From Agrobacterium vitis (GTDB taxonomy: Bacteria; Pseudomonadota; Alphaproteobacteria; Rhizobiales; Rhizobiaceae): DNA of 64,000 nt. The notes beneath the pieces are model-generated. The model was not told where the DNA came from and made no database searches. It worked only from the letters and a program-made list of their open reading frames with translations. Position numbers and translations under genes: made by a program. Below are positions 41,918 to 53,918 of the stretch, in pieces (positions within the stretch are counted from its first letter, which is position 1; each line of letters begins with the position of its first letter). The DNA lies in contig NZ_JACXXJ020000005.1 in the NCBI RefSeq assembly GCF_014926405.1, positions 3,043,001 to 3,107,000 on the forward strand, read 5' to 3'.

Positions 41918-43366
41918 TCAATCTGGCCATTTCGCCAGCAAGCCAAGACCTTGGTCCAGCAGACTGGCCGCCGATGCATGGTCGCTTGCCTCAACATAAC
42001 AGCGCATTTCCGGGGCGTTGCCGGAAGGGCGGAAATGGATGACCCTGTTATCATCGAGCGTCACCCGCAAACCATCGATATCGCTGGTTTCGCGCACACC
42101 CCCTATAGGCGCCAGGAAACTATGCAGGTTTTCGTCCGAGCCGCGCAGAAACGCCATCAACGCACTGCTTTTGTCCAAGGCATAGTGCTCAAGACGGTCA
42201 GAAAGGGCAATCGGCAGGCGATAGTCTGACACCACGGCAGAGAGTGTCTGTCCGGTGCTCGCCGCTACATAAAGCGCTGCCAGGATAGGCATAACACAAT
42301 CGCGGGTCGGCAGAGCGGCAAGCCTGCCGTCATGGATGGTGAAATCGGAGGCCAGCATCACGCCGCCATTCGCCTCAAAGCCGATCACGCCGCTTTCACC
42401 CACTGAGAGCGCCGCATTCATAGCGGAAATCACATAAGGAGAGCCGACGCGGGTGCGCAGGACCTTAAACCCGCTTGCGGCTTCAATGCCGGAATTGGAG
42501 GTAACGGGTGTTGCAATCACCTTGGCGCCCAGCAGGTTTGCCGTGATCAGCCCCAGCAGATCCCCCCGCAAGGGCGCGCCCTTTTCATCGGCCACCAGCG
42601 GACGGTCGGCATCGCCATCGGTGGAGACGATGGCATCCAGGCCATGCTCGCTTGCCCAGGCGGAAAGCTTGCCGATTGTGTCCGGGGATACCGCTTCGGT
42701 ATCAACAGGAACGAAGACCTCTGAGCGTCCCAGCGGCAGGACGGATGCGCCATAGCCCTCAAGCAGGGTCACCAGCATGTCACGCGCCACGCTGCTATGC
42801 TGATAGACGCCGATTTTCATGCCGGCAAAGGCGGCAGGGGGCAGTACAGCCATGTTGCGTTTCAGAAACAGGTCGACGGCAATGGCGTATCGGTCTTCGC
42901 CTGCGCCATGCTCAACGTGGTTAGCGCGCTCATCAGCCGCCAACTCGGCGGCAAGGGCAGTGATCGCCTCTTCATCAGCCTTGTCGATTTCTCCATCCGG
43001 CCGATAAAATTTGATGCCGTTGCGGTCGGCCGGAATGTGGGAGCCTGTCACCATCAGCGAGGCTGCACCGATCCGGCTGCCATAAAAGGCCAGCGCCGGC
43101 GTGGGAATGGCCCCACAATCAACCGGAACCAGCCCTTCCCGTTGCAGCGCACCCATGCAGGTGGCAGCGATTTCCGGGCTGGAGGGGCGAAAATCCTGGC
43201 CGATCAGCACGGTCGCGCCCGGCTTGGCATAGCCCTTGGCAAGCAGCATTCTGGCAAATGCCGTCGCATGCAGAGCCGAAACGCTGCCAACCAGGTCCAA
43301 AGACAGACCGCGCAGTCCGCTGGTGCCGAATTTTACCGCCATAGGGTCAAGCCTCGCTGTCATCAA
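41918..43366 (-). CDS. Phosphomannomutase / phosphoglucomutase family enzyme
   Basis: A 482-aa alpha-D-phosphohexomutase with all four domains. MAVKFGTSGLRG is at the N-terminus. The phosphoserine loop reads TGSHIP (Ser109), a change from the common TASHNP. The metal loop is DGDADR, the sugar-binding loop is GFEANGG, and the phosphate loop is RPSGNAPEMR. It interconverts hexose 6- and 1-phosphates, probably mannose, for GDP-mannose and polysaccharides. The altered serine loop (Gly108, Ile111) occurs in some rhizobial members, so the substrate should not be assumed. Confidence 0.93.
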   Translation of the reverse strand: MMTARLDPMAVKFGTSGLRGLSLDLVGSVSALHATAFARMLLAKGYAKPGATVLIGQDFRPSSPEIAATCMGALQREGLVPVDCGAIPTPALAFYGSRIGAASLMVTGSHIPADRNGIKFYRPDGEIDKADEEAITALAAELAADERANHVEHGAGEDRYAIAVDLFLKRNMAVLPPAAFAGMKIGVYQHSSVARDMLVTLLEGYGASVLPLGRSEVFVPVDTEAVSPDTIGKLSAWASEHGLDAIVSTDGDADRPLVADEKGAPLRGDLLGLITANLLGAKVIATPVTSNSGIEAASGFKVLRTRVGSPYVISAMNAALSVGESGVIGFEANGGVMLASDFTIHDGRLAALPTRDCVMPILAALYVAASTGQTLSAVVSDYRLPIALSDRLEHYALDKSSALMAFLRGSDENLHSFLAPIGGVRETSDIDGLRVTLDDNRVIHFRPSGNAPEMRCYVEASDHASAASLLDQGLGLLAKWPD

Positions 43367-44041
43367 GTCATCGCACCAATCCTCCGCGCGGTCATCGCGC
43401 TAAGGTTTGCCCAGACTGTTTAAACCAATTCAAAGCAGACGAAAGCATCGTTTATGCATCGAACCGGATAAGATGGACAGAAGAGAGAAGACACCGAAGC
43501 CAGAACGCAAAAGAGCCCGACGCGGGAGGAGGATGCGTCGGGCTCTTGAACTTGATCGGCAATTGGGAGGAGGAGTATCGCCGATCCCTTCAAAGCGACA
43601 CTGGGAGGAGGAGTGCGTCGCTTCGATGATTTCAATATAGAGGATTTCCCAGGGATGAATATCGTTAATACCGCATTGCAGCAATGTATTCAGCGCATAG
43701 CGAAAGCATGAAAATACCGGCGTTTGACGAAATCTATCCATAAACGGAGCCCTTTTACCCTCCATCGCCGATCATCAGCTAGGGAATGAGTAGAATTTGC
43801 GCACTTCCAATCGAGACGATTGCATAGCCACCGGATCAAGCGCGAGCAGAGTTGGAAGATTGCCCACGAGACCTATCGGCGCAATGGCCTGACAGACAAA
43901 GCCCCCCGCTGGAAGCCAAGCTCGAAAACCAAGCCTGCATGGACCTTAGAAAGACCCAAAAACCGTCCTAGGAAAACCAGATCCTCGCCGATATAAATTT
44001 TGCACATCGCGTCCGTGGCAAAACAAGCAAAGACCTCATCC
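43367..44041. other. Intergenic region holding a candidate sRNA
   Basis: About 675 bases between the mutase and the formylglycine hydrolase. The candidate sRNA (about 43507-43630, minus strand) occupies the left part. Bases 43640-44041 contain short frames only; none looks coding. No promoter for the hydrolase is obvious. Confidence 0.5.
43507..43630 (-). ncRNA. Candidate sRNA with three CUCCUCCC-loop hairpins (cuckoo/αr14-like)
   Basis: Three hairpins in a row, each presenting UCCUCCUCCC in its loop on the minus strand. Hairpin 1 (43593-43623) has AAGCGAC/GTCGCTT arms; hairpin 2 (43554-43586) has GATCGGC/GCCGATC arms; hairpin 3 (43511-43547) has a perfect 13-base-pair stem AAGAGCCCGACGC and is followed by U residues, like a terminator. 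The loop sequence is an anti-Shine-Dalgarno. This is the described hallmark of the cuckoo (CcsR/αr14) sRNA family of alphaproteobacteria. The minus strand is chosen from the loop polarity and the U-tract. The 5' end is uncertain. Confidence 0.75.
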
Positions 44042-45568
44042 ATGCAGAAAAAGCCGAATATCCTGCTGATCACCGCGGACCAATGGCGGGGCGATTGCCT
44101 GTCAGCGGTCGGCCATCCCGTGGTGCAGACCCCCAATGTTGACCGGTTGGCGGCAGAAGGCCTGTTGTTTCATCGACATTTCGCCGCAGCCGCCCCTTGC
44201 TCGCCGGCGCGGGCGGCGATCTATACCGGGCTTTACCAGATGAACAACCGGGTCTGTCGCAACGGCTCGCCACTCGATGCCCGTTTCGACACGGTGGCGC
44301 TGGCGGCACGCCGGGCCGGTTACGATCCGACGCTGTTTGGCTATACCGATGTATCTCTCGATCCGCGCCACCTGCCCCCCGCCGACCCGCATCTGACCAG
44401 TTACGAGGGCGTGTTGCCGGGCTTTACGGTTGGGCAATTGCTGCTGGAAGATGATCGGCAATGGCTGAGCTGGTTGAAAACCCGGCGCGGCGGCGTGCGG
44501 CCCGGGCGCGAACTCCATCAGACCGGGCAGGAGCGGCCAGTCCAGCCCAATCAGGAACCACCGGCCTATAGTGCGGAAGAAACCCCGACCGCGTTTCTGG
44601 CCGAGGCTTTCCTGAACTGGCGCGAGGAGCAGACGCGCCCGTGGTTTGCGCATATTTCCTTCCTGCGCCCACATCCGCCCTTCTGTGTTCCCGAACCCTA
44701 TAACCGGATGTTTACGCCGGGCAGTGGACCCAAACCTGTGCGTCATCCGACGCTGGAAGCGGAAATGGCCGTGCATCCACTGGCAGAGCTGATGCTGCCG
44801 CAGCTGCCTCAATCCTCTTTCATTGCCGGCGCCGAAGGCCGCGTCTGCGACTGGAGTTCAGAACAGATCGACGTAATCCGCGCCACCTATTACGGCATGA
44901 TCGCCGAGGTCGATGCCCAATTTGGCCGGATCATTGATGCCCTGAAAGACAGCGGCACCTGGGACGACACAATCATCGTCTTCACCTCCGACCATGCCGA
45001 AATGCTGGGTGACCACTGGATGCTGGGCAAGGGCGGTGTCTATGATGGCAGCTATCACATTCCACTGGTGATCCGCGATCCGGCGAACACTAGCACCCAC
45101 GGGCAAGTGGTGGAAACCTTCACCAGCGCCGCCGACCTGATGCCGACGCTGCTGGACCGGATGGGCGTCAGCCCGCTCAATCATCAGGACGGCGGTTCCC
45201 TGCTACCATTTCTTGCTGGCACACGGCCTGATGACTGGCGAGACCACGCGTTCTGGGAGTTCGATTTTCGGGAAGTGGTGACAAATTCCACGGAGAATGC
45301 CCTCGGTCTGAAATCCAGCCAGTGCAATCTCGCCGTGATCCGTGACGAAAAATTCAAATATGTGCATTTTGCCGGAATGCCACCGCTGCTGTTCGATCTT
45401 CAGGCTGACCCGGGCGAGTTGACCAACCTAGCAGAGGACCCGGCATATGGTGCGATAAGGCTGCATTATGCCGAAAAGCTGTTATCGCTTCGCGCCGAGC
45501 ATCTGGACCAGACCTTGGCCTATACCGAGCTTTGCGACGAAGGACCGGTGAGCAATCCGAAACTGTGA
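44042..45568 (+). CDS. Formylglycine-dependent hydrolase: phosphonate monoester hydrolase / sulfatase
   Basis: A 508-aa alkaline phosphatase superfamily enzyme. The sulfatase motif CSPAR (Cys53-Arg57) provides the cysteine that is converted to formylglycine; Asp13 (LLITADQWRG) and HAEMLGDHWMLGKGG supply metal and substrate residues. NILLITADQWRGDCL and the overall length fit the phosphonate monoester hydrolases known from Rhizobium and Burkholderia, which also act on phosphodiesters and sulfates. The physiological substrate is unknown. Start ATG 44042 (MQKKPNIL) is chosen over 44000. A formylglycine-generating enzyme is needed and is not encoded here. Confidence 0.9.
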   Translation: MQKKPNILLITADQWRGDCLSAVGHPVVQTPNVDRLAAEGLLFHRHFAAAAPCSPARAAIYTGLYQMNNRVCRNGSPLDARFDTVALAARRAGYDPTLFGYTDVSLDPRHLPPADPHLTSYEGVLPGFTVGQLLLEDDRQWLSWLKTRRGGVRPGRELHQTGQERPVQPNQEPPAYSAEETPTAFLAEAFLNWREEQTRPWFAHISFLRPHPPFCVPEPYNRMFTPGSGPKPVRHPTLEAEMAVHPLAELMLPQLPQSSFIAGAEGRVCDWSSEQIDVIRATYYGMIAEVDAQFGRIIDALKDSGTWDDTIIVFTSDHAEMLGDHWMLGKGGVYDGSYHIPLVIRDPANTSTHGQVVETFTSAADLMPTLLDRMGVSPLNHQDGGSLLPFLAGTRPDDWRDHAFWEFDFREVVTNSTENALGLKSSQCNLAVIRDEKFKYVHFAGMPPLLFDLQADPGELTNLAEDPAYGAIRLHYAEKLLSLRAEHLDQTLAYTELCDEGPVSNPKL

Positions 45569-45680
45569 CGTGATGATTTCAGGCGTGGTTCTTGATATTC
45601 GGTATCGCTGCACGACTGTTTCCGCTATACAGCGCCGTGCGCCATATATGGCGCACAAAGGTTCGCTGTAGCGCTTTATA

Positions 45681-45734
45681 TCTGCTGCATAATTTTCTCC
45701 TTAAATCGATTCCGATTTAAGGAATTATGCAGTA
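45681..45734. repeat. Dispersed palindromic repeat (family B), copy 3
   Basis: TGCTGCATAATTTTCTCC, core TTAAATCGATTCCGATTTAAG, then GAATTATGCAG. Arms CTGCATAATT and AATTATGCAG are inverted. It is the inverse complement of copies 1 and 2 and the best preserved of the three. It lies between the hydrolase and the exonuclease gene. Confidence 0.75.
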
Positions 45735-45771: not shown

Positions 45772-46398
45772 ATGGCTTCCACCATTCGCTACCATGAAGG
45801 TGATATCAGCAGCGAAGACGCGGCGCGCTATACCCGCGCCATCGCCATCGACACCGAAACGCTGGGGCTTATCCCTCGCCGCGACCGGCTCTGCGTGGTG
45901 CAGCTTTCGCCAGGTGACGGTACTGCCGACGTGATCCGCATTGCGCCGGGCCAGCGCCAGGCCCCCAACCTGACCGCCCTGCTGGAAGACCCGACCCGGG
46001 AAAAAATCTTCCATTATGGCCGGTTCGACATCGCCGTGCTGTTCCACACGTTTGGTGTCACCACCACGCCGGTGTTCTGCACGAAGATCGCCTCGCGCCT
46101 GTCGCGCACCTATACCGACCGGCATGGACTAAAGGACAATCTCAAGGAAATGCTGGATGTGGATGTGTCCAAGGCCCAGCAATCCTCCGACTGGGCGGCG
46201 GAAACGCTGTCTCCGGCGCAGCTCGAATATGCCGCCTCCGACGTGCTCTATCTGCATGCGCTGCGCGACAAGCTGACCGCCCGGCTGGTGCGCGATGGCC
46301 GCATGGACCACGCCACCGCCTGCTTCGAGTTCCTGCCGACCCGGGCCAAGCTGGACCTGCTCGGCTGGGAAGAGACCGATATTTTCGCCCATAGCTGA
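45772..46398 (+). CDS. RNase D-like 3'-5' exonuclease
   Basis: A 208-aa DnaQ-fold exonuclease. Exo I, AIDTETLGL (Asp and Glu), Exo II, HYGRFDIAVL, and Exo III, YAASDVLYLH (Tyr and Asp) are all present. It has no HRDC domain, so it is about half the length of E. coli RNase D. Processing of structured RNA 3' ends is inferred. The start follows CAGGAGACAGGC. It converges with lepA across a shared terminator. Confidence 0.95.
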   Translation: MASTIRYHEGDISSEDAARYTRAIAIDTETLGLIPRRDRLCVVQLSPGDGTADVIRIAPGQRQAPNLTALLEDPTREKIFHYGRFDIAVLFHTFGVTTTPVFCTKIASRLSRTYTDRHGLKDNLKEMLDVDVSKAQQSSDWAAETLSPAQLEYAASDVLYLHALRDKLTARLVRDGRMDHATACFEFLPTRAKLDLLGWEETDIFAHS

Positions 46399-53817: not shown

Positions 53818-53918
53818 GGTGGGAGGCTGGCACGATGACCCGTGCCGCGCTCGTTAGGGCTGCTTCCTTCCGGACCTGACCCGGTTGGCGAGTGGCTCGT
53901 CCACCACCAACCTCCCGA
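53818..53918 (-). ncRNA. ffs: Signal recognition particle RNA, small bacterial type (4.5S)
   Basis: The minus strand holds the universal SRP core GGTCAGGTCCGGAAGGAAGC, the GGAA tetraloop and the two internal loops bound by Ffh. The ends pair through GGGAGG and CCTCCC, closing a long hairpin of about 96-100 bases. It lies 71 bases upstream of dnaX, read in the same direction, a position conserved in many alphaproteobacteria. Exact ends are inferred from pairing. Confidence 0.95.

Follow-up and report, generated by a model that had tools for sequence, protein, structure and literature searches.

Positions 43508–43631 on the minus strand of the window (the whole 64,000-nucleotide stretch of DNA analysed) encode an alphar14-family three-hairpin small RNA, whose loops imitate the ribosome's mRNA-binding sequence. 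Rfam cmscan of the window matched the ar14 model (RF02344) over its full length (model positions 1–123 of 123) with a score of 122.5 bits, the gathering score being 58.8 (E 3.1e-22); this was the covariance-model search that a preliminary description of the locus had suggested. The MFE of the RNA was -56.7 kcal/mol compared with -29.3 ± 3.4 kcal/mol for shuffled sequences (z -8.15; 0 of 200 shuffles as good). We consider it highly probable that the locus specifies an LsrB-type-activated alphar14 trans-sRNA with redundant loops that would cover Shine-Dalgarno sequences and that would operate outside NtrC repression. The features of the locus and its neighbours are as follows.

43508..43631, minus strand: alphar14 (RF02344) trans-sRNA, about 124 nt (Rfam cmscan and fold z of -8.15)
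43590..43626, minus strand: hairpin 1, 12-bp stem in the MFE fold, loop 43602–43614 with UCCUCCUCCC (fold)
43554..43586, minus strand: hairpin 2, 10-bp stem, loop 43564–43576 with UCCUCCUCCC (fold)
43511..43547, minus strand: hairpin 3, 13-bp stem, loop 43524–43534 with UCCUCCUCCC, then a short U run; probable intrinsic terminator (fold)
43635..43640, minus strand: -10 element CTATAT, exact to the published consensus (sequence; consensus from PMC10746234)
43669..43697, minus strand: upstream element conserved in alphar14, TGCGCTGAATACATTGCTGCAATGCGGTA, spanning about -38 to -66, proposed LsrB-type site region (sequence comparison)
41918..43366, minus strand: phosphohexomutase (PMM/PGM-type) gene, likely start 43342; downstream, co-directional and syntenic, not part of the sRNA (Pfam)
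44000..45568, plus strand: sulfatase/PehA-like ester hydrolase gene, divergent neighbour (Pfam; NCBIfam PehA 538 bits, cut-off 900)
45772..46398, plus strand: RNase D-like 3'-5' exonuclease gene, neighbour (Pfam; NCBIfam rnd 88.9 bits, cut-off 298.95)

The preliminary description had placed the RNA at 43507..43630, where the features are indeed present with the coordinates one base off. Its three consecutive minus-strand stems with a shared loop motif were recovered as a three-hairpin MFE fold with UCCUCCUCCC in each loop and the CCUCCUCCC core unpaired in all three, and the last stem, described as perfect over 13 bp, has 13 unbroken pairs in that fold. The U-tract reported after it exists but is modest (CUCUUUUG) and lies in part within the stem; a simple terminator scan, which permits loops of 3–8 nt, called no terminator at hairpin 3, where the loop is 11 nt. 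Of the proposed cuckoo/CcsR/alphar14 affiliation, the alphar14 part stands and the CcsR part falls: the CcsR1 model (RF02791) scored 36.2 bits at the window RNA, below its gathering score of 65.3, so by Rfam's rule the RNA is alphar14 and not CcsR1, and the latter assignment was dropped. Within the 64-kb window the sequence CCTCCTCCC is found exactly three times, always on the minus strand (43524–43532, 43565–43573 and 43603–43611). Window shuffles gave a mean of 0.42 matches, with at least three anywhere in 3 of 100 shuffles, so the count alone is mildly unusual and weak evidence; chance is excluded because of the spacing of the motifs, the stems and the Rfam E of 3.1e-22. The sole other gathering-level Rfam match in the window was a bacterial small SRP RNA (53819–53915, minus strand, 61.7 bits).

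Selection on the loops, which the preliminary description had also claimed, was borne out in an alignment of 27 orthologs (25 distinct rows), comprising 25 of the 29 phosphohexomutase-linked copies (without G006, G015, G016 and G023) and two RNase D-linked copies, one from Agrobacterium and one from Neorhizobium. The CCUCCUCCC columns were invariant in all three loops across the 27 orthologs, with loop 2 being 3 nt longer in many rows, while 99.6% of the 722 pair cells in the 25 distinct rows were standard pairs. Double changes were found in 10 of 29 stem pairs, compared with a shuffle mean of 2.9 (0 of 500 shuffles had as many) and at most 3 when the partners were slid; further pair types numbered 20 against a shuffle mean of 19.0 (58 of 500) and were thus no better than shuffles. 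By hairpin, the inner 7 pairs of hairpin 1 were 98.9% paired in the orthologs with double changes in one of the seven, hairpin 2 had double changes in 5 of 10 pairs, each confined to one row, and the 12 pairs counted in hairpin 3 were 100% paired with double changes in four. Selection on the anti-Shine-Dalgarno loop cores, carried on covarying stems, is supported by these data. The alignment also speaks to the strand, since 26 G-U cells were counted on the minus strand (many of them inherited together) compared with 2 A-C/C-A cells, the ones expected to read as G-U in a plus-strand RNA; this asymmetry identifies the minus strand as the RNA, as had been proposed.

The genome that contains the window (6.4 Mb, 7 contigs) has six ar14 matches over the cut-off and seven DUF1127 matches, with DUF1127 near four of the six ar14 copies and near neither the window copy nor the copy at C3:382775. 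The absence of the usual DUF1127 neighbour was correctly noted in the preliminary description, as none lies in the window and all seven matches of the genome are elsewhere. Its suggestion of an orphan copy is right with respect to DUF1127, but such a copy is not unusual and its locus is stable. In a survey of 23 genomes (20 via named contigs, plus G000, G012 and G029) with 101 ar14 matches over the cut-off, 52 copies had no DUF1127 within 1.5 kb and 49 had one, among the matches listed, so orphan status is common. Where DUF1127 did lie within 1.5 kb it was always on the strand of ar14, the nearest being 31–372 nt upstream (mostly about 250 nt) or 226–540 nt downstream of the sRNA; these counts cover DUF1127 matches of about 44 bits and more plus a single weaker one, and among the other weaker matches listed, which were checked by eye, none was within 1.5 kb of ar14.

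Within the genus of the window, ar14 was over the cut-off in 30 of 30 genomes, a set that includes Allorhizobium sonneratiae (G026), a Ciceribacter (G013) and Rhizobium sp. RU33A (G002), and it was found in 1 of 20 genomes from other families of the order. The stability of the locus follows from synteny: ar14 stood upstream of the phosphohexomutase gene, on the same strand, in all 29 same-genus genomes having the gene, at a gap of <300 nt in 22, 793–859 nt in 4 and 5.2–5.4 kb in 3 (G004, 66% complete, had no gene match, and in G014 the gene match was a piece, split with a stop). The best NCBIfam match of the phosphohexomutase itself was GlmM-like and below the cut-off. The association is not general in Rhizobiaceae, because the triple motif, searched as an exact motif and not by covariance model, was near the gene in 7 of the best 80 of 593 named phosphohexomutase loci, three of the seven (L074, L075 and L077) coinciding with same-genus genomes; the five of the 80 with <3.2 kb of upstream DNA (L081, L110, L118, L119 and L122) make a weak test of absence. 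In Agrobacterium tumefaciens CNPSo 675 the RNase D-like neighbour is separated from ar14 by 1.7 kb, and in Neorhizobium huautlense by 0.2 kb.

Upstream of the RNA, the -10 element agrees exactly with the published alphar14 promoter consensus, CTTAGAC-N17-CTATAT (PMC10746234), and the -35 region is poor relative to CTTAGAC; a simple promoter scan found nothing for the window sRNA. Transcription would start from a sigma-70-type promoter with this exact CTATAT and poor -35, and the weakness of the latter suggests that the sRNA promoter depends on an activator, for which the LysR-type regulator LsrB, acting at the -66 to -38 element, is the most likely candidate. NfeR1 homologs have already been reported to share a conserved upstream stretch of 29 nt (PMC10746234). 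In 35 of the 50 ar14 copies that we compared, a 30-nt element with the consensus aGctaTGCgttnnntGCAttGCTGCanTGCngcA began about 64–74 bases before the start of the RNA, scored as at least 16 of 26 against an author-chosen seed from ar14 promoters, the 50 copies being labelled loci and not all those fetched. Its core was present in 25 of the 26 locus orthologs used for promoter and strand counts (the 29 phosphohexomutase-linked copies minus G006, G016 and G023). A search of the window's own genome with up to 3 mismatches found the element at 8 places, compared with 0 for the reversed-pattern control; five places had up to 2 mismatches, four of which were ar14 promoters including that of the window copy, and the fifth, together with the three 3-mismatch places, was not at ar14. 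The ar14 copies at C3:382775 and C5:1271424 were unmatched in this genome-wide search.

The downstream half of the window element is well kept (CATTGCTGCAATGCGGTA) and the LsrB box less so. The sites described for NfeR1 are an LsrB box, TGCA-N6-GCAT, between about -72 and -60, and an NtrC box, TGC-N11-GCA, between about -116 and -101 (PMC10746234). The window has an LsrB-type box, TGCG-N6-ACAT, at the right place, in which 2 of the 8 fixed bases of TGCA-N6-GCAT are changed, and the exact LsrB box was found in 7 of the 26 locus orthologs. No TGC-N11-GCA match was present upstream of the window copy, and one was seen in that region in 1 of the 26 orthologs.

Two readings that would deprive the locus of a free minus-strand sRNA were weighed. 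To the idea that the plus strand is the functional one, with the triple repeat serving as a series of GGGAGGAGG Shine-Dalgarno-like sites or as a coding feature and the hairpins being incidental, we attach next to no probability: a 77-codon plus-strand frame does run across the locus (43407–43640), but neither this frame nor the two minus-strand frames tested had a Pfam match, the 26 minus-strand G-U cells stand against 2 complementary A-C cells, and the order of the U run and the conserved promoter element is that of the minus strand. The plus-strand feature was dropped on the lack of a Pfam match and the G-U asymmetry, and a small protein on the three overlapping frames without one. In the second reading the RNA belongs to the phosphohexomutase gene, as its 5' leader or an attenuator. 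The two are on the same strand, 142 nt apart as measured from the ORF start at 43366, and are co-directional in 29 of 29 genomes; however, the gap reaches 793–5386 nt in 7 of these 29, family RNAs with the same promoter element adjoin other genes, pairing of the phosphohexomutase leader with loop 1 is weaker than that of the candidate targets tried, and the 13-bp hairpin 3 resembles a terminator. A leader function is accordingly quite improbable, and was dropped for the variable gap and the weaker loop 1 pairing.

A further alternative accepts the alphar14 sRNA and makes it the true ortholog of Sinorhizobium meliloti NfeR1 (SmelC397, Smr14C2), with the same LsrB/NtrC/ntrB circuit. Six NfeR1-type copies are reported in S. 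meliloti (PMC7143759). In S. meliloti CP090106.1 two tandem ar14 copies occur in the order tig - ar14 - ar14 - DUF1127 - DUF1127 - trmFO, and the second has TGCATCACTTGCAT at about -71 and TGC-N11-GCA at about -115; it was taken as NfeR1 because these boxes match the published LsrB and NtrC sites. Common to NfeR1 and the window copy are the family, the RNA architecture, the loops, an upstream element near -70 at nearly equal distance and ABC-transporter-type candidate targets, and the genome of the window has its own ntrB-like gene with a complementary Shine-Dalgarno. The position, however, is different: NfeR1, as recognised from its boxes, is the second tandem copy between tig and DUF1127-trmFO and has an NtrC box, whereas the window copy is not in that locus, which in its own genome holds another, different ar14 copy, and has no TGC-N11-GCA upstream. 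The tree points the same way, the window copy and other orphan copies forming a 27-row clade (100/100) with the NfeR1-type rows outside it, in an unrooted analysis of 45 three-hairpin copies whose sequences are short and some of whose branches are long (5 four-hairpin rows were left out). NfeR1 orthology is thereby largely refuted by position and tree, with the NtrC box also missing, and we regard it as very improbable; on account of the other neighbourhood, the lack of an NtrC box and the separate clade, the window copy is probably a paralog of NfeR1 and not its ortholog.

Three observations were made beside this comparison. The 3.72-Mb record CP090106.1 is labelled pSymB but contains tig, trmFO and secDF together with the NfeR1-type locus, so the label has probably been swapped and the record is the chromosome. 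In S. meliloti Ak57 the first DUF1127 gene by NfeR1 has an ar14-type element of its own, about 130 nt ahead of the start codon (L288:8613-8645), a sequence arrangement which suggests that the sRNA and DUF1127 at the NfeR1 locus are under shared control. The ar14 copy in the tig/DUF1127 locus of the window's genome (C5:1271424-1271547) has an altered third loop, UCUCCUCCCC, and no upstream element at the usual distance, and is possibly differently controlled or decaying.

The alphar14 sRNA of the window would, on the mechanism that we propose, be transcribed up to hairpin 3, and each of its loops (UCCUCCUCCC) would pair with the Shine-Dalgarno of mRNAs carrying GGGAGGAG or GAGGAGG, thus blocking 30S binding; the three loops may be interchangeable, as published for NfeR1 (PMC10746234). 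As its promoter has no NtrC box match it should escape NtrC repression, unlike S. meliloti NfeR1. The latter silences two ABC-transporter mRNAs and ntrB through three redundant aSD loops and is activated by LsrB (PMC10746234). The window sRNA probably switches off nutrient-uptake genes.

Candidate targets were sought with the pattern GGGAGGAG-N4-11-ATG, which had 47 matches in the genome compared with 2 for the reversed pattern, an excess indicating that the sites are Shine-Dalgarno sites and not in itself proof of sRNA targeting. Of these places 45 were read; the remaining two are an additional ATG following a site already counted and the complementary sequence of an ar14 loop. Behind GGGAGGAG-N4-11 start 29 distinct frames of at least 100 aa, 14 of which are ABC-transporter components by Pfam (binding proteins, ATPases and permeases), unevenly spread over the replicons (13 of 21 frames on C3/C4 versus 1 of 8 on C5). 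A control Shine-Dalgarno pattern, TAAGGAGA, had 29 matches, many of them on a dispersed palindromic repeat; enrichment of ABC transporters over background is not established, because this control gave no background rate. ABC-transporter mRNAs nevertheless form the largest candidate target class, in agreement with the published NfeR1 targets. The ntrB-like gene, which lies downstream of a dusB-type gene and whose best NCBIfam match is NR(II) at 191 bits (below the cut-off of 240), has GAGGAGG four bases before its ATG; the sRNA-ntrB duplex is not exceptional, 22 of 500 shuffled leaders pairing at least equally well, and ntrB is a possible target.

With respect to known systems, the window RNA is an ordinary member of alphar14 (SmelA075-type, part of the 'cuckoo' RNAs), resembling the family in length, three hairpins, CCUCCUCCC loops and variable stems, as well as in a multicopy genome, a conserved upstream promoter stretch and orphan or DUF1127-linked loci; no difference was found in the RNA itself, and the locus alone (RNase D-like/PehA-like/phosphohexomutase) differs. 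The CcsR1-4 RNAs of Rhodobacter sphaeroides share the CCUCCUCCC loops and likely Shine-Dalgarno masking, and are released by cleavage from the transcript of a DUF1127 (ccaF1) operon that is driven by an RpoHI/RpoHII promoter (PMC10253847), whereas the window copy has its own promoter element, no DUF1127, a score below the CcsR1 cut-off and three hairpins, RS0680a being described with two stem loops (PMC3927594). Three- and four-hairpin CCUCCUCCC RNAs are already in print in the same source. The four-hairpin SmelA099-type RNAs have the same loop motif and one hairpin more than the window copy; a fourth CCUCCUCCC motif and hairpin was found in four of the six ar14 copies of the window's genome (C3:685621, C5:538062, C4:39931 and C3:382775), just upstream of the Rfam-modelled part, so that RF02344 cuts these four short. 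The six ar14 RNAs together hold 21 exact anti-Shine-Dalgarno motifs. No published description of the window ar14 locus was found in those portions of the literature on these RNAs that were searched; TSS data are published for Allorhizobium vitis T60/94 (PMC10469942).

A known Rfam family with a published function explains the finding, and its value is comparative: it is a stable alphar14 locus with neither DUF1127 nor an NtrC box match, in a genus not chosen for legume symbiosis, and comparison could separate what is ancestral in the NfeR1 circuit (possibly LsrB activation and ABC-transporter silencing) from symbiont additions (possibly NtrC feedback). A more far-reaching proposal, which we hold to be rather doubtful, is that copies at the RNase D-like/phosphohexomutase locus form a separate non-symbiotic alphar14 branch without NtrC control and would be, in this genus, the master arm of a small regulon. 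A single activator element would there drive alphar14 genes and hardly any others, so that the cell could mask an entire class of strong Shine-Dalgarno sequences together.

The dispersed palindromic repeat is itself present in the window, between the PehA-like and RNase D-like genes, as a sequence of about 105 nt (TGCATAATTCCTTAAATCG...CGATTTAAGGAGAAAATTATGCAG..., at about 45627–45731 on the minus strand) that we take to resemble the Rhizobium intergenic mosaic element RIME. It was observed at 12 places in the genome, some of them partial, namely the window copy (L323) and the rows L303, L305, L306/L307, L308, L311, L316, L318, L319, L320, L322 and L324.
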